A stretch of DNA of 64,000 nucleotides from positions 124,001-188,000 of the forward strand of contig SHZU01000005.1 of assembly GCA_009692115.1 (NCBI GenBank), read 5' to 3'. A program made the position numbers and the translations under genes. Every line of letters begins with the position of its first letter. Positions within the stretch are counted from its first letter, which is position 1. The notes below the pieces were generated by a model. It searched no databases. It had not been told where the DNA came from and worked only from the letters and a program-made list of their open reading frames with translations. The stretch is from Gemmatimonadota bacterium. GTDB lineage: Bacteria; Gemmatimonadota; Gemmatimonadetes; Gemmatimonadales; GWC2-71-9. Of this stretch, positions 15,176 through 31,156 are shown one piece after another.

Positions 15176-15536
15176 CTAACGAAAAACCAGATCCAGCCAG
15201 ACCTGCATCGGAGGAAACACGTCGAGCGGCCGGCCGTCCGGGGCAAAGAGCGAGTGATTGCCATCGGGTCCGGCCCAGCGCCCGAATCAGGCTATCGGCC
15301 AGTTGGGCGGATCGGACCGCGGGAATACTTCGATCGAGCCCCCCGAGCCCCCAGTACGCGTCGCCCTTCATCGCGACGACATCGGCGATCGGGCTGTAGC
15401 CCCTTGGTCCGGCGAACGCAGCCAACACTCGGGGATTCACCGCCACCATCACGGTACAGGCAACGCCTGGGAGCGGTCCGGTGTGCGGGTACCAGGTGTC
15501 CTGGACCGGCACCAAGCAAGGGGGCGATAACGTCAT
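15176..15536 (-). pseudogene. C-terminal remnant of an alpha/beta hydrolase, frameshifted
   Basis: On the minus strand one frame reads through 'AMKGDAYWGLGG' and 'DRSIPAVRSAQLADSLIRALG', the usual strand and Asp region of alpha/beta hydrolases. Near position 15283 the sensible reading moves to another frame, 'AGPDGNHSLFAPDGRPLDV', which carries the expected catalytic His region and ends 'WLDLVFR' at a TAG at 15178-15176. No nucleophile elbow or N-terminus exists upstream because the CarH-like gene ends at 15586. So this is the tail of a lost gene, with at least one frameshift. The rest of the gap 15095-15585 holds nothing else I can recognise. Confidence 0.6.
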
Positions 15537-15585
15537 TCCCTAGAGTGGGCCGGGAGGAATCGGCGGGTCACCCAGCGTTTGGTGG

Positions 15586-16521
15586 TCAGCCCCCGGACAC
15601 CCGACTGAGCTCGACCCGCAGCGCGTCGAAGCTGTCGATCGGCCGGAGGTGCAGTTGGTCGAGGAGGGTGCGGTGGCGCCGGGCGGCTTCGCCCCCGACG
15701 AACACCGGGGTCCGGGTTCCCAAGGCCTGGCTTAACGCCCGGAGGTCCAGTTCGATCGCGGAATCCTCGGCCCTGTAGACGATACTGACGCCGACTGCGC
15801 GGGCCCGAAGCCGTTCGGCCGCGATGGCGATTTCCTCGCCTGGAAGATCAGCTCCGAGATAGACGGCCCGCCAACCTTCGCCCGCCGCGATAGCGGCGGC
15901 AAGCAGGGCGCCGATTTCATGGTGCTGCCCCGAGGTGGTGGCCGCGATGAACACCGGGGCGGTGGGCGCGGTCACCGTGAAGGCGAGCAGGTTGCTCATG
16001 ACATGTCGAATCGTGGCAGTGGCCAGGTGCTCCTGAACGATTCGGAGTTTTCCCTGATGCCAGAGATCGCCGATTTCCCGAACCAAGGGAACCACGAGTT
16101 GTTCCGCAAACGCGACCGGGCCCATCCGGACGGCGGCTTGGCGTAGCAAGGCGTCCAGCGTTCCCCCGTCCATCCAACCGAGCGCCTCCAACCCGCGCTG
16201 GCGAATCGACGCGGAGTAGTCGGACGCCACGTCGGTCGGTTTGGTTACCGCGAACTGGGGTGCCGTCTCCAAGAGCCCCGCAACTTCCTCGTTGGTGAGC
16301 TGGGCGACTCGCCCAATCGAATGACCGTAGACGGTGGCCCGTTTGAGCAGCAGGAGGCGGTCAACGTCCGCTTCCGAGTAGAGCCGTTGGCCACCCTGGG
16401 TTCGGCCGGGGTGTACGACCGCATACCGTCGCTCCCAGGCCCGGAGCAGTTCGGCGGTCAGGCCGGTTCGCCGGAGGACGATTCGAACCGGGTATACGGG
16501 GTTGTCCAAGCTTAGCGTCAT
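15586..16521 (-). CDS. carH: CarH/LitR-type MerR regulator with adenosylcobalamin-binding photosensory domain
   Basis: 311 residues from ATG 16521; an upstream in-frame TTG at 16554 falls inside the predicted -35 box and is rejected. A MerR helix-turn-helix lies at about 11-80, followed by a four-helix B12-cap region and a Rossmann B12-binding domain. The photoreceptor hallmark W-x9-E-H is present with the axial His directly after Trp: W154-H155 and E164-H165. The lower-ligand motif is Q199-x-H201-x-x-G204, with Gln where Glu/Asp is usual. In CarH, dark AdoCbl-bound tetramers block a promoter and light releases them. The gene is divergent from a fasciclin gene across a shared promoter region. 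It may be autoregulated and leaderless. Confidence 0.85.
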
Positions 16522-16650: not shown

Positions 16651-17133
16651 GTGATCGGTCGATTGATGGTTGGGTTGAGTGCGGCGGTGCTTCCGATATC
16701 AGGGGCGGTGGCTCAGGCCTCCAGTGCCCCGGCCAACACGATCGTCGACGTGGCGGTCGGAGCGGGAAACTTCAAGACGCTGGTTGCCGCGGTGCAGGCG
16801 GCTGGCTTGGTCGAAACCCTGAAGGGTGCCGGTCCGTTCACGGTGTTTGCCCCGACGGACGAAGCGTTTGCCAAGTTGCCCCCGGGCACCGTCGAGGCGC
16901 TGCTCAAAGACAAGGCGAAGCTGGCCGCCATCTTGACCTACCACGTGGTAAGCGGTGCGGTGGGATCGGATCAAGTCGTCAAGCTCAAGTCGGCCAAGAC
17001 GGTGAACGGCAAGGACGTCTCGATCATGGTCATGAACGGCAAGGTGATGGTTGGCAATGCCCACGTGATCACGACCGACATCAAGGCCTCCAACGGCGTG
17101 ATCCACGTGATCGACGCCGTCCTCCTCCCATAA
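16651..17133 (+). CDS. Secreted fasciclin (FAS1) domain protein
   Basis: 160 residues from GTG 16651, which has AGGGGG six bases upstream; an ATG at 16564 lies in the same frame but before the promoter. A signal peptide ('[18 protein letters not shown]') is followed by one complete FAS1 domain: the H1 box '[11 protein letters not shown]', the central 'LTYHVVSG', and the H2 box '[12 protein letters not shown]' that ends the protein. FAS1 proteins mediate adhesion or cell-surface interactions. It is divergent from the CarH-like regulator and followed by a strong terminator, so it is probably a light- or B12-controlled single-gene unit. Confidence 0.9.
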
Positions 17134-24290: not shown

Positions 24291-26831
24291 TTAGAAACGA
24301 GCGGTCAATCCACCAAGGAGGCGGCGTCCGTTGACCGAGCCGCCGAAGATCGAGTACCGCTGTTGGTCGAACAAGTTGTTGGCCGTCACGTAGACCCGCA
24401 GGTTGTTGTTGACGGCAAACCCCGCATTGGCGTCGATCGTGCCTTGCGGCTCGATCCACCCGGCGAACACGCCAGCCGCCCAGTCATACCCCTTGACCGC
24501 CCGGAAATTCACGCCCAAATCGAGGCCGCTCCGACCGGTATAGGTGACGGCGATGTTGCCTTTCGAGCTTGGCGTGTTGGGAACCAGCTGATCGCCGGCG
24601 AGCTGCTGGTTGATGTCGAACCGGAAGATCGTCAGGTTTCCGTCGACCCGAAATTCGTCGGCCAACTGGAGACCCGCGGCAAACTCAAAGCCGTACTGGG
24701 TGGCCTTGCCGGCATTAGCGTACGACACCACGACCGCGGTCTTGCCGTCCTCCTGCCGGGTCAGGCCCCGTCCGGCGGTGGCGGTGGCCGGATTGGCAAG
24801 CAAGGCGTTTCGCACCGCGCCCTCGAGGGCGGCCCGGGCCGCCGCGGGTACGGCGGCCGGAGCGGTCCAGGCGCCAAAGGTAGGATTGACACCAGGCAAC
24901 AAGTCGGTGACGAAGTCCCTCAGCACGTTCAAGTAGGCGTCGACCGAGAAGTAGAACCGATCGGTCAGATCGCCGCGATAGCCGATTTCGATACCGGTGT
25001 TCTTTTCGACTTGGAGCTTGTTGTTCCCCCGGGCCCGGACCGGGACGGCGGCGGTGTTGTCGAACAGCTGTCCGGCCGGCACGCCGGCGAGGAGGGGGCC
25101 TAACTGCGGGTTGGCCCGGAGACCGGCTTCGAGGGCCGAGAAATTGGCCGGTGCGCCGGCGGCGGCATTGAGGAAGAACTCCGAATAGTTCGGGGTCTGG
25201 AACGCCTTGTTGAACGTGAACCGGAACGAATGCCGGTCCGTCGGCGTGTAGACGATGGCCGCCTTGGGCGAGAATTGGGCGTCAATCAGGCCACCGAGAT
25301 CATACCGGCCGGCCGCTACCACTTTGGTCACCTCGCTGAGCTTGTACTCGAACTGGCTGAACAACGCGTAGTAGTTGTCGGTCCGATCGTCATCGAGGCG
25401 ATTGATCAGGGTTTGCTGGGTGTTGAGGCTGTACTTGCGGAAGGAGCCGCCGAGCACGAACCGACCCTTGTCGCCCGCGAAGGTGTTCTTCTGCTGGCCC
25501 TCGACGTGGAAGATGTCGGACCGTTCCTCGAGGCCCGCGCCGGAGGCGAGCGAATACTGCGGCTCTTCCGTTTTCCGGCCGTTCCAGTAGGCCATCACAT
25601 CGAAGGCCTTGGCGGCGTAGTTGAACCGGGTGTAGGGCCGGACCGACTTGGTGATTTGGACCCGCCCGATGCCGGTGACCGCGGTTTCGTTTTCGGCCAG
25701 CGCCATCCCGAACTCGCCGGTAGCGATGTCACCGTTGGCCGTGTAGTAATCGAGCCGGGCCGATCCGTAGGTGCTCTTGACGGGGTCCCGGTCGCCGGTC
25801 AGTGCGCCGGTGGCCGGGTCGGCGGTCTGGCCGTTCAGGGCCCGGAGTTCCCGCCGGGAACACGACGAGCAAAAGCTCCGGAAGGTCAGGGAATCGGTGG
25901 CGGGCCTGTATTCGGTCTTGAGGGCGCTGCCGTCCGCCAAGGTTCGGGAACGAGACCAGGTATCGCTTCGGTAGTAGCCCACGTTGACTCGGTATCCGAA
26001 CCGGCCGTCGTACAGCAATCCGGCGTGCCGGAGATCCGCCTTGGCGGTGGAGAGCCCGCCGCCGCCGACGCTCAGTTTGGTGCCGACGACCTCCCGGGCG
26101 GAGGGGGTCTTGATGTTGAGCACACCGGCATAGGCATTGGCGCCGTACAGGGCCGAACCGGGGCCCCGGACCAGTTCCATGGAACCGATATCTTCGGTCG
26201 GGACCGAGAGGGCGTTCCACTCTTGGTTGCCGAGGAAGCCGGTGGCAACGTCGCGACCATCGATGAGCACCAACACGCGGCGGTTCAACGACGAGTTGAA
26301 ACCGCGGGTATTGACGTTGAAATCGTTGACTCCGTTTTGGGCCAAGTCCACCCCGGGTACCGCGGCCAAGGCGAGCGGCGCTTGTCCGGTAATCGAGGTG
26401 GTCTGGAGGGTCCGGGCGTCGATGACCGACACGGCCGCCGGTGCTTGGGTGGCCCGCTCCGGAGCTTTCGAGGCGGTGGTGACGATCAAGGCATTCAAGG
26501 CGATCGGATGGGCTTCCATTTTGGCGTCGGCCGTGGTGCTGCCACCGGCCGTGACCGTGACGGACACTTCGGTTGGCTTGTAGCCGAGCCACCGAAACAC
26601 CAACGTGTAGGTGCCGGCGGGAACCCGCTCGATCACATAGCGGCCTTGGGTGTTGGTGACCGCCGTGGTGCCGGGGCCGCGGACCCCGACCGTGACGCCG
26701 GCCAGCGGGGCGCCATCATCGACTCGGGTGACTTTGCCGGCCACTGTGCCGGTGCTCTGCGCCATGACCGTGGGTGCCGCAAGGACCGCGAGGGCCGCTG
26801 CCAGCATGCCTGCCGTACGTAGCAAACGCAT
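24291..26831 (-). CDS. TonB-dependent outer-membrane receptor
   Basis: 846 residues. Signal peptide ending 'APTVMAQ', then a carboxypeptidase-regulatory-like beta domain at about 26-105 ('GTVAGKVTRVDDGAPLAG'), a plug domain at about 118-235 with 'VLVLIDGRDVA', 'MELVRGPGSALYGANAY', then a 22-strand-type barrel ending in 'GLTARF' (terminal Phe, as in outer-membrane proteins). A Cys-rich loop 'SFCSSCSRRE' lies near residue 335. It imports a large substrate (siderophore, cobalamin, peptide or glycan) across the outer membrane; the ligand is unclear. The stand-alone setting and N-terminal extension resemble SusC-like/CirA-type receptors of scavenging bacteria. Confidence 0.92.
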   Translation of the reverse strand: MRLLRTAGMLAAALAVLAAPTVMAQSTGTVAGKVTRVDDGAPLAGVTVGVRGPGTTAVTNTQGRYVIERVPAGTYTLVFRWLGYKPTEVSVTVTAGGSTTADAKMEAHPIALNALIVTTASKAPERATQAPAAVSVIDARTLQTTSITGQAPLALAAVPGVDLAQNGVNDFNVNTRGFNSSLNRRVLVLIDGRDVATGFLGNQEWNALSVPTEDIGSMELVRGPGSALYGANAYAGVLNIKTPSAREVVGTKLSVGGGGLSTAKADLRHAGLLYDGRFGYRVNVGYYRSDTWSRSRTLADGSALKTEYRPATDSLTFRSFCSSCSRRELRALNGQTADPATGALTGDRDPVKSTYGSARLDYYTANGDIATGEFGMALAENETAVTGIGRVQITKSVRPYTRFNYAAKAFDVMAYWNGRKTEEPQYSLASGAGLEERSDIFHVEGQQKNTFAGDKGRFVLGGSFRKYSLNTQQTLINRLDDDRTDNYYALFSQFEYKLSEVTKVVAAGRYDLGGLIDAQFSPKAAIVYTPTDRHSFRFTFNKAFQTPNYSEFFLNAAAGAPANFSALEAGLRANPQLGPLLAGVPAGQLFDNTAAVPVRARGNNKLQVEKNTGIEIGYRGDLTDRFYFSVDAYLNVLRDFVTDLLPGVNPTFGAWTAPAAVPAAARAALEGAVRNALLANPATATAGRGLTRQEDGKTAVVVSYANAGKATQYGFEFAAGLQLADEFRVDGNLTIFRFDINQQLAGDQLVPNTPSSKGNIAVTYTGRSGLDLGVNFRAVKGYDWAAGVFAGWIEPQGTIDANAGFAVNNNLRVYVTANNLFDQQRYSIFGGSVNGRRLLGGLTARF

Positions 26832-26938: not shown

Positions 26939-28129
26939 CTATTTGATCAGACTGACTTTCGTGACCCGGACGCGTCCCGGTTCGCCGGCTTCCGGGCCCG
27001 GCTCGGCGTAGGCCACGTAGAGATCCGATCCCACCAGGGCTGTCCGGGGGAATCCACCGTCTCGGGACCGGCTGGTCGTCGCGACTGTCAGGATCTCTCG
27101 ATCGGGACCCGCCCCGCCAACCGAGCGGACCCGCCAGAAGGCCTGATTGCCGTCGGCCTCGAGCCAAGTCACGACGCCTCGACCTGGGCTGGTCATCTGA
27201 AAGTGTATCCGCCCCAATGGGTTACCCTCGTCAATCCGAATCGGCTTTCCGAACGTCCGACCCCCGTCGGTCGAGAAGGCGGCATTGACCTTCGGGACGC
27301 CGTTGGCCGCGGTAAACCACGCCACGCCTACGTCGTTGCCCGTGGCGGCGATGGACGGACCGTTCACGGGACATTGTCGCGAAACCCACCCGTCGTTTGC
27401 CACCTTCACTGGTTCCGACCACCCGGCTCCGTCCTGGCGGACGACAGCAATGTCTCGGATCTCGTGTTCCGACCGATCCCGGTAGGCCACCACCAACCCG
27501 CCCCGGCCGGCGGTCATCGAGACTTGGCAGCACTCGCAGGTTCGGGTATCGAGCGCGGCCTCATCGGAGACGGTTCCATCGGGGTTCCAGAGAGCGGTCC
27601 GGACCGACATGGCGCCGGCGGAGTCGGTCATTTGTCGGCCGTCGAGCCAGGCCACGGCCACCGAACCCGAGCTGAGCGGGACCATGGCGACGAAGCCGTG
27701 CTCGGTGGCGGAGGTATCGGAATGGACGGTGACCGGTGCCGACCAGGTCCGGCCCCGGTCTCTGGAAGCGGCGAGCTTCACATGATATGCGTAAGCCTTC
27801 GTCGCGGTCTTCTCCAACCAATGGACGACCCAGGTACCGGTCGTGGTTTCAGTGATCGAGGGGAAGTCGGCCCAGTTGACGAAGAACTTGTCGCTTTCCG
27901 CGATCGTGACGGGGGGAGACCAGGCCCCGGCGGATCGGTTGGCCGCTCGGAGGGCGTAGCGACGGTCCGCTCTCGGTTCGAACCAGCTGAGCATCAAGTC
28001 GCCCTTGGAGGTGCGACTCAAAAACGGTTTGCTGCTGCCCGGCGGGCCGGACCATTCGAGGGTGGTTTTTCCACTGGGGGTGCTTCCCCCAACCGCCAGA
28101 GCCACGAGGACGATCCACGCTGTTCGCAT
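26939..28129 (-). CDS. Secreted sialidase-like (BNR-repeat) protein
   Basis: 396 residues with a short N-terminal hydrophobic segment. Asp-box-type repeats 'SRDRGRTWSAP' and 'STDGGRTFGKP' mark a six-bladed sialidase-fold propeller. The sialidase Arg triad and FRIP motif are not evident, so enzymatic sialidase activity is doubtful. An unusual 'TCECCQVSMT' motif at mid-protein has three closely spaced Cys. Spacing to the TonB receptor (107 bases, same strand) allows co-transcription. An imperfectly placed inverted repeat, CCGGAAC-GGG-GTTCCGG, lies at about 26872-26888 between the two. Confidence 0.78.
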   Translation of the reverse strand: MRTAWIVLVALAVGGSTPSGKTTLEWSGPPGSSKPFLSRTSKGDLMLSWFEPRADRRYALRAANRSAGAWSPPVTIAESDKFFVNWADFPSITETTTGTWVVHWLEKTATKAYAYHVKLAASRDRGRTWSAPVTVHSDTSATEHGFVAMVPLSSGSVAVAWLDGRQMTDSAGAMSVRTALWNPDGTVSDEAALDTRTCECCQVSMTAGRGGLVVAYRDRSEHEIRDIAVVRQDGAGWSEPVKVANDGWVSRQCPVNGPSIAATGNDVGVAWFTAANGVPKVNAAFSTDGGRTFGKPIRIDEGNPLGRIHFQMTSPGRGVVTWLEADGNQAFWRVRSVGGAGPDREILTVATTSRSRDGGFPRTALVGSDLYVAYAEPGPEAGEPGRVRVTKVSLIK

Positions 28130-28164: not shown

Positions 28165-28325
28165 TCAGTCGGTGGCGGCCTCGAGGGCTGCTTGGTTGGG
28201 CCACCGGGTGTGGCCTTTGGCCAGGTCAGCCAGGGTGGTGTGGCGGAGAGGAACCGAACCACCCGGTCGCCGAGGGCGCTCCAGGCCGCGTGGGCCGGAC
28301 AGGCGGCCTTCGCGGTGCACTCGGG
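28165..28325 (-). pseudogene. C-terminal remnant of an Rrf2 family regulator
   Basis: On the minus strand one frame reads 'ECTAKAACPAHAAWSALGD' and 'RVVRFLSAT'; a one-base shift then gives 'TLADLAKGHTRWPNQAALE' and a TGA at 28167-28165. Together these match the end of Rrf2/IscR-type regulators (Cys ligands, C-x-x-H-x-x-W, then TLADL). Everything upstream of the Cys region, including the DNA-binding domain, is missing: the sequence passes directly into the tail of a permease gene coded on the other strand. Confidence 0.6.
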
Positions 28326-28637
28326 CTGGCGCTCCTGGTTTGGCTCGGGTGTAAGGTGATCTACGATGGGATCCTCCTGCTCGTTGTCACGCTGTTCCGC
28401 GACTACCCGCTCGAGACGCCGGTGCTGATCCTCACGTTCTTGAACCCGGTCGATCTGGCCCGGGTAGTTCTTCTGCTCACGTTCGATGTAGCGATCCTGA
28501 TGGGGTACACGGGCACTCTGTTTGCCGAGTTGTTGGGGACCGGTCCCGGGATCGCCGCCGCGTTTGGCGTGCTGCTGGCTTGTGCCGCGGTTCCGTTGGT
28601 GGCCGGGTTCCGGTGGTTCGGGAAGAAAGACTTCTAA
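28314..28637 (+). pseudogene. C-terminal remnant of a NosY-like ABC-2 permease
   Basis: About 107 residues with three hydrophobic helices, the family segment 'LNPVDLARVVLLL', then 'LMGYTGTLF' and the terminal 'RWFGKKDF'. These features match the last third of NosY/COG1277 permeases, best in the version found with clade II nitrous-oxide reductase clusters. The first two-thirds of the protein is absent and no start codon or ribosome site fits. The 5' end abuts the truncated Rrf2 gene on the opposite strand at about 28310-28325. Confidence 0.6.
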
Positions 28638-28639
28638 CG

Positions 28640-29635
28640 TTAGGCAGACCGGGCCGCGGCCTCGAATCGGGCCATGATGACGGCCACCGGTTCGATGCGG
28701 TGAATCGTGCCGACGCTCATCCCGGCTTGCCAGATGGCCGTCGCGGCATCGTCGGCCCGCCCCTGGCCCCGGATCGAGGTGCGTTTGAGATCCCGAATGG
28801 CCCGGAGCCCGAACCAGGCCCGGATCCATTTCTTGGTGCGGCGGCCTGTGAAGAGCCATCGGGCCACCGGGCCGACCTTGGTGCCGATTCGGGCGATGTA
28901 GGGCGTCTTGATGACCGCAACCGGTACCCCGCTCAACCGCTCGGTGTGGGTGATGTCGGCTTCGGTTGCCGCGACGATGGCCTCTTTGTAGGCCTCGCTC
29001 GCGGTGCACTCCGGGGTCGCGATGAAGCGGGTGCCGAGTTGGACGCCAGCGTAGCCAAGGGTGAGCGCCGCCCCGAATTCCGCTTCGCTCCCAATCCCGC
29101 CGGCCGAGACCACCGGCAGTCCGAGTTCGCTGAGTTCCGCGAGGAGTTGTTCGGGGTTCCGGCTGCCGGAGTGTCCGCCGGCCCGGGCGTTGACGGCAAT
29201 CAGGCCGTGGACCCCGCCATCGCGGGCCTTCTCGGCCCATTTTCGCTCTGTCACATCATGGTACACGACCCCGCCTTGGCGGGTGACGGTATCGACGACC
29301 CAGCGGGGATTGCCGAGTGAGGTCACGAAGAATCGAATGCCTTCCTCGAGGGCGATGTCGACCCATCGCATCATCCGGTCGTGATAGGTCTTGGAACTGG
29401 TCTCGATCAGGGCGTTCATCCCGATCGGTTTCGAGGTGAATCGGTTGATGAGTTGGAGGCCGGCACGAAACTCGTGGCCATGGACGTAGGTCAGCGCGAT
29501 CGGTTGGACGATCCCGATGCCGCCGGCCTCGGACACCGCGGCGACGAGTTCGGGGTTGCTACACGGGTACATGGCGCCGCCGATAATCGGGAGGGCAATG
29601 CGGGCGTGAGCGGTGAGCGGGGTCTCGAGGCGCAT
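28640..29635 (-). CDS. Nitronate monooxygenase (2-nitropropane dioxygenase family)
   Basis: 331 residues, FMN-dependent TIM barrel. 'PIIGGAMYPCSNPELVAAVSE' style N-terminus, 'NARAGGHSG' (flavin/active-site His loop), 'VSAGGIG' and 'GVQLGTRF' phosphate-binding segments are all present. The family oxidises toxic nitronates such as propionate 3-nitronate; some members are enoyl-ACP reductases or have unknown substrates. The gene converges on the NosY-like remnant with two bases between stop codons. Confidence 0.87.
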   Translation of the reverse strand: MRLETPLTAHARIALPIIGGAMYPCSNPELVAAVSEAGGIGIVQPIALTYVHGHEFRAGLQLINRFTSKPIGMNALIETSSKTYHDRMMRWVDIALEEGIRFFVTSLGNPRWVVDTVTRQGGVVYHDVTERKWAEKARDGGVHGLIAVNARAGGHSGSRNPEQLLAELSELGLPVVSAGGIGSEAEFGAALTLGYAGVQLGTRFIATPECTASEAYKEAIVAATEADITHTERLSGVPVAVIKTPYIARIGTKVGPVARWLFTGRRTKKWIRAWFGLRAIRDLKRTSIRGQGRADDAATAIWQAGMSVGTIHRIEPVAVIMARFEAAARSA

Positions 29636-29917: not shown

Positions 29918-30321
29918 ATGAAACTGCTTTGTTGTTTGATGGTGGCCGCCGGGCCGGTGGCCGCCCAGACCGGCCCCGTCGCCCCCGTTGACCAGTCTGG
30001 TTGGACGGCCGGCGAGTGAGCTCCGGGATGTCGTGGCCCGCTACTCATCCGACCGCCGGGCCCTCGGCCGCCAGTACGACCTCGAAGCCTCGGCGGTGCG
30101 GCGGCGCGCCATGGCGCGCTTCGATCGGGCGTGGCTCAAACAAATCACAGCCATCGGCTTCGACTCCCGCCGCGACGGCGAAGACCCTGGCCGCCACCAA
30201 GGCGTTTCACGACGCCATCCTGCAATCGGGGCACCTGCCGGTCGAGTTGGTCCGGGCCGGTTTGATGAAGCAACCGCCGCGGGGAGATTTCGAGCCCAGT
30301 TGGCGGTTTGCGGGTTTCTAG
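29918..30321 (+). pseudogene. DUF885 family protein collapsed by an internal deletion
   Basis: ATG 29918 opens a signal peptide ('LLCCLMVAAGPVAAQ') and reaches TGA at 30017. The next frame continues with the DUF885 start 'SELRDVVARYSSDRRALG' and 'RFDRAWLKQITAIGFDS'. Near 30175 a third frame gives the family's C-terminus, 'KAFHDAILQSGHLPVELV', ending 'WRFAGF' at TAG 30321. Intact DUF885 proteins are roughly 550-600 residues; here the two ends are only tens of residues apart, so some 450 residues have been deleted, and there is also a frameshift near 30010. Confidence 0.7.
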
Positions 30322-30874: not shown

Positions 30875-31156
30875 ATGCCTGAACCCACCGCGGCCCAGAC
30901 GATTTCGCTCATCGGCATTCTGGTCGAATTGGGAGCGTGTTTGCTGTTCACCACGCTGGTCCTCGGGCTCCGCCGGGAAACAACGCCTCGGCCTTACTTC
31001 ATTCATTGGTCATGGGCCTGGTTGGCGCTGTCCGTTGCGTTGGCGGCGATGGCGGAGTTTCTGGCCCGGCTCAAGACCTCTCACTGGCAGAAGCCATTCG
31101 ATCTCCGGGTGTTGGTCCAGCTGGTTGAGCGGTTTCGGGTCGGGTCGGAATCGTGA
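30875..31156 (+). CDS. Short two-helix membrane protein, possibly a truncated sensor N-terminus
   Basis: 93 residues from ATG 30875. Two hydrophobic helices (about 10-30 and 48-66) resemble the first two helices of the multi-pass input domains of histidine kinases and diguanylate cyclases, like the N-terminus of the broken kinase at 17.2 kb. The last 25 residues are hydrophilic and unrelated in character. It may be a deletion product with a foreign tail or a genuine small protein. Its stop shares one base with the TauE-like start. Confidence 0.4.
   Translation: MPEPTAAQTISLIGILVELGACLLFTTLVLGLRRETTPRPYFIHWSWAWLALSVALAAMAEFLARLKTSHWQKPFDLRVLVQLVERFRVGSES

Follow-up and report, generated by a model that had tools for sequence, protein, structure and literature searches.

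Remnants of a nos gene cluster at a probable deletion scar in a Gemmatimonadota genome

In one Gemmatimonadota lineage, a deletion of about 6.4 kb very probably removed a nos gene cluster, which serves the conversion of the greenhouse gas nitrous oxide (N2O) to nitrogen by nitrous-oxide reductase, and left behind a chimera of two gene tails. The DNA analysed, termed the window, is a 64-kb stretch (G000:C5:124001-188000) of the genome G000, one draft assembly of its species (3.12 Mb in 23 contigs; 97.1% complete, 1.5% contaminated). It was compared with the genomes of 60 relatives, including five congeners (G001, G002, G003, G004 and G005). The loss is evident from the two remnants themselves, from three congeners in which this site still holds an intact cluster, and from the absence of nosC, nosZ, nosB, nosL and nosD from the whole assembly. 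As reconstructed, the deletion would have taken nosC, nosZ, nosB, nosL, nosD and nosF entirely, together with two thirds of rrf2 from its 5ʹ end and ~160 codons from the start of nosY. The rrf2 and nosY tails would then have been fused into a non-functional chimera by illegitimate joining, with no long repeat involved.

Gemmatimonadota nosZ is among the commonest in soil (PMC10581226), yet the gene is unevenly spread in the phylum, found in at least 23% of Gemmatimonadota genomes (PMC9426454). Patchiness of nosZ is usually inferred from presence and absence alone; a located scar with conserved flanks is direct evidence of loss and of its direction. With such a scar, the change from N2O sink to non-sink can also be put to the test across a set of closely related species.

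Two gene tails and the intact locus in relatives

The scar and its flanks comprise the following features.

24291..26831, minus strand: TonB-dependent receptor, conserved left flank (sequence comparison with relatives)
26939..28129, minus strand: BNR-repeat (sialidase-like) protein, conserved left flank (PF13088; also in G001, G003, G004, G007 and at a contig end of G022)
28165..28328, minus strand: 3ʹ remnant of rrf2, the divergent Rrf2-family regulator of the nos cluster (tblastn with G003 Rrf2; custom profile; intact orthologues in G001, G003 and G004)
28246..28247, no strand: insertion of 2 bp that shifts the frame of the rrf2 remnant (DNA alignment with three relatives; position within a few bases either way)
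28320..28328, no strand: deletion joint with ~6.4 kb missing, ~9 bases compatible with either parent
28321..28637, plus strand: 3ʹ remnant of nosY, the ABC-2 permease of the NosDFY maturation system (tblastn with NosY; weak PF12679 match, E 0.008)
28640..29635, minus strand: nitronate monooxygenase-family protein, conserved right flank (PF03060; a neighbour in relatives as well)

The rrf2 remnant retains the final ~54 codons and the stop of a gene whose 5ʹ two thirds are missing. Residues 97-126 and 123-149 of G003 Rrf2 match 28328-28239 and 28248-28168 on the minus strand (joint E 8e-7; tblastn against the 64-kb window). Additionally, a custom profile built from six intact Rrf2 proteins has this remnant as its best match in the six frames of the window (E 1.9e-5; runner-up 0.68). 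The 2-bp insertion near 28246 is absent from all three congeners compared by DNA alignment. The nosY remnant keeps ~105 final codons and the stop, and ~160 first codons are gone. Residues 165-263 of G003 NosY match 28338-28634 on the plus strand with 74% identity (E 2e-45; next best in the 64-kb window E 0.15), and the tail is 74-78% identical to the congener NosY encoded directly after nosF, which identifies it as a NosY orthologue. Pfam and NCBIfam searches of the raw remnants were discarded as a means of identification, as sequences this short gave weak matches only. Only 2 bp separate the nosY stop from that of the monooxygenase gene (28637-28640).

An earlier note on this DNA had described a regulator tail of 50 residues with one frameshift and, on the plus strand, a permease tail of 107 residues, both cut at nearly one point at 28310-28325. 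The two tails, the frameshift and the near-coincidence of the cuts all stand on the tblastn, profile and alignment evidence, whereas the lengths become ~54 and ~105 codons and the place of the cut moves to 28320-28328.

A search of the 60 relatives with the NosY tail gives matches in all five congeners, three of which (G001, G003 and G004) carry an intact clade II nos cluster at this site. In the intact locus, rrf2 is divergent from nosC-nosZ-nosB-nosL-nosD-nosF-nosY. Single contigs of G001 and G003 preserve the order TonB receptor, BNR gene, rrf2, nosC/Z/B/L/D/F/Y, DUF486 gene and nitronate monooxygenase gene, with ~3.9 kb of other genes separating nosY from the DUF486 gene in G001. The G004 locus is spread over contig ends (left half up to the nosZ start on C2, middle on C427, right half on C24). 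The earlier note had supposed just such a locus, with the regulator divergent from a cluster ending in nosY and with nosZ perhaps within the lost DNA, and had proposed comparison with relatives. That comparison bears it out, in that relatives have a full clade II nosZ between rrf2 and nosY, and their locus has the BNR/sialidase-like and nitronate monooxygenase genes on either side as in the window.

NosZ of G003 scores 923.7 bits on TIGR04246 (Sec-dependent; cut-off 625) and 363.6 on TIGR04244 (TAT-dependent), which places the lost nosZ in clade II. NosD reaches 409 bits on TIGR04247 (cut-off 300). The remaining families in the cluster are Rrf2 (TIGR00738), cytochrome c, NosL (weak, E 6e-4), an ABC ATPase and an ABC-2 permease. 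The names nosC and nosB were assigned from position together with cytochrome c or membrane character; nosB had no family match in the profile searches, and those of NosY and NosL were general or weak. The congener locus is like the clade II (Sec-dependent) nos clusters with Rrf2 in its content (Rrf2, c-type cytochrome, nosZ, nosB-like gene, nosL/D/F/Y and no nosR), and PMC6264515 reports an enrichment of Rrf2 regulators on clade II scaffolds. The window differs from such clusters in holding two gene tails only and is thus a fossil.

The conservation of the site reaches beyond the genus. In G007, which belongs to another genus, nos genes without rrf2 have the same left and right neighbours, and on partial contigs nos genes adjoin the BNR gene in G022 and the monooxygenase gene in G031. 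This distribution indicates that the presence of nos genes at the site is ancestral and that the window represents a loss.

The joint and the deletions beside it

Homology to the Rrf2 protein extends to 28328 and homology to nosY begins at ~28320-28321. Measured on G003, the stretch missing from the window is 6381 bp long, and on G001 it is 6448 bp; comparison of the window with these two genomes found no long repeat at the joint. In a check for microhomology, the 9 joint bases fit either parent, and the relatives are too diverged to supply the ancestral letters. The pattern of the joint is what would be expected of illegitimate joining, possibly guided by microhomology.

A single deletion, the history favoured in the earlier note, is consistent with the one joint seen, although nested deletions would give an identical scar. 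Successive or nested deletions, or inactivation before deletion, are variants compatible with the loss and, if rather unlikely, find some support in the neighbourhood, where two or more further internal deletions occur and the DUF486 gene is gone. However, a single joint is visible between rrf2 and nosY, with nothing left from the interior of the cluster. One event remains the preferred reading. The two further scars nearby are as follows.

29982..30321, plus strand: second scar, in a DUF885-family gene (compared with G007, 15427-15610 and 16963-17080)
30875..31156, plus strand: third scar, in a PAS/histidine kinase/receiver (hybrid histidine kinase) gene (compared with the domains of the G001 orthologue)

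Both of these scars fall no more than 2.5 kb downstream of the nos scar. The DUF885 gene has kept a stretch near its N-terminus as well as its C-terminus; compared with G007 it lacks ~1.35 kb from the middle, and its frame is interrupted. In the kinase remnant, the N-terminal membrane part is fused in frame to the last ~40 residues, and the counterparts in G001 and G004 are longer by ~2.0 kb. Furthermore, the DUF486 (DMT_6) gene, which adjoins the monooxygenase gene in G001, G002, G003 and G004, is absent across the whole G000 assembly. There is also no match in G000 to ccoN (cbb3 oxidase), an absence from a 97% complete draft that is weaker evidence than a scar; ccoN is above the cut-off in G002, G003 and G005 and is represented by contig-end pieces in G001 and G004. 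At 3.1 Mb, G000 is the smallest assembly among the six of the genus, the others spanning 3.9-5.4 Mb. The scars, together with the absence of the DUF486 gene and of ccoN, fit a lineage that is shrinking by deletion and leaving low-oxygen respiration.

Absence of nos genes from the genome and their apparent turnover in the genus

In G000, nosZ has no match anywhere in the assembly (3.12 Mb, 97% complete). A joined query of rrf2, nosC, nosZ, nosB, nosL, nosD and the DUF486 gene yields only a distant Rrf2 paralogue on C10, with nosC, nosZ, nosB, nosL and nosD on none of the G000 contigs; the same query recovers the nos genes in all five congeners, except nosL in G005. The genome-wide absence covers these five genes; ABC ATPases such as NosF are too numerous to be distinguished in this way. 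When full-length NosY is the query, the tail remnant is the sole match in G000. Across the 61 genomes searched, nosZ is above the cut-off in 25, and it is present in all five congeners, the G004 copy being split into pieces below the cut-off. Because all five congeners keep nosZ, we infer that this species has lost N2O respiration and would be unable to reduce N2O with NosZ, as the earlier note had surmised in calling the locus a fossil. Among other respiratory markers, NirK is above the cut-off in G001 and G002 only (not in G000), the NorB cytochrome c-like domain (PF22085) is found in none of the genus, and cytochrome bd (PF01654) is found in G004 only.

With G000 represented by one draft assembly in 23 contigs, the assembler might have fused the ends of an intact nos cluster that the real genome retains. 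Such an artefact is very improbable, given that nosC, nosZ, nosB, nosL and nosD are on no contig of a 97% complete assembly and that the joint has no long repeat able to mislead an assembler. Moreover, the rrf2 tail is frameshifted at a place distant from the joint, and the two further deletions nearby have unrelated joints.

Two congeners have no nos genes at this site. Some 70 bp is all that separates the monooxygenase gene from the BNR gene in G005, and in G002 the DUF486 gene alone stands between the two; neither empty site holds nos remnants beyond what chance gives in GC-rich sequence. Both genomes have nos clusters at other loci, G002:C5 (L029) and G005:C12 (L027). The NosZ tree unites G003, G005, G001 and G004 in one clade (100/99), to which G007 is adjacent (98/97), and the nosZ of G005 looks vertically inherited but relocated. 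Because G002 NosZ falls outside the group of these four and G007, its gene is suggested to be a likely replacement by a more distant version. The monooxygenase tree places all six genomes of the genus in one clade (100/99), inside which the species order is unresolved. At the level of the order, the NosZ tree has two deeply separated groups, with G023, G028, G044, G060, G036, G008, G018 and G009 in one and the rest in the other.

The empty sites in G002 and G005, with nosZ elsewhere, imply that nos genes move within the genus and could suggest that the two tails are the leftover of a failed horizontal acquisition in a lineage that never had a working cluster here. This is still less probable than an assembly artefact: the two-sided synteny is the same as in three congeners and another genus, and the identity of the NosY tail to G001, G003 and G004 (74-78%) is about that of the flanking genes (71-77%, monooxygenase). 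Deletion of a resident cluster is the reading retained. More tentatively, and somewhat less likely than not, nos genes would turn over fast in the genus (kept in place in three species, moved in G005, replaced in G002, deleted here), and the deletion would be part of a streamlining that includes removal of the cbb3 oxidase, a switch from low-oxygen-capable to strictly oxic life.

Known nos losses and the age of the deletion

Loss of nos genes is already known as a type of event; what is new is an unusually clean instance and the wider pattern of deletion around the scar. In PMC4250227, losses of the nos regulon are cited for Azospirillum and Neisseria, and these are alike in that N2O reductase is gone while relatives keep it. 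The present case differs in concerning an uncultured member of the Gemmatimonadota, with a joint placed within nine bases against syntenic congeners. Pseudogulbenkiania has nosZ-like pseudogenes (PMC5017806) and is alike in that a nos gene remnant persists in the genome; however, that remnant adjoins a full-length nosZ, whereas the genome of the window has no nosZ left. The literature searched, of limited extent, held no description of a nos deletion scar in Gemmatimonadota.

Among the points against the deletion account is the state of the nosY tail, which is free of stops and frameshifts and seems to remain under constraint, unlike a very old pseudogene. Over 103 codons compared with G001, G003 and G004, its pN/pS is about 0.25, resembling intact copies. 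On the protein branch of the tail, G000 has 0.249 and G003 0.145, a ratio of 1.7 (0.69, 0.75, 0.91 and 1.08 in four neighbouring controls), an excess that is mild and drawn from few sites. From a TTG at 28005, the nosY frame runs through 210 codons without a stop, but that the joined tails still yield a functional short protein or RNA is the least credible of the alternatives, since this frame crosses the start of the BNR gene antisense, most of the membrane domain lay in the lost part, the partner ATPase NosF is gone from the site, and the G000 branch is 1.7 times that of G003 where control genes give 0.7-1.1. The open frame of the NosY tail and its merely mild acceleration point to a young deletion, which, though undated, is read as recent relative to the species split.
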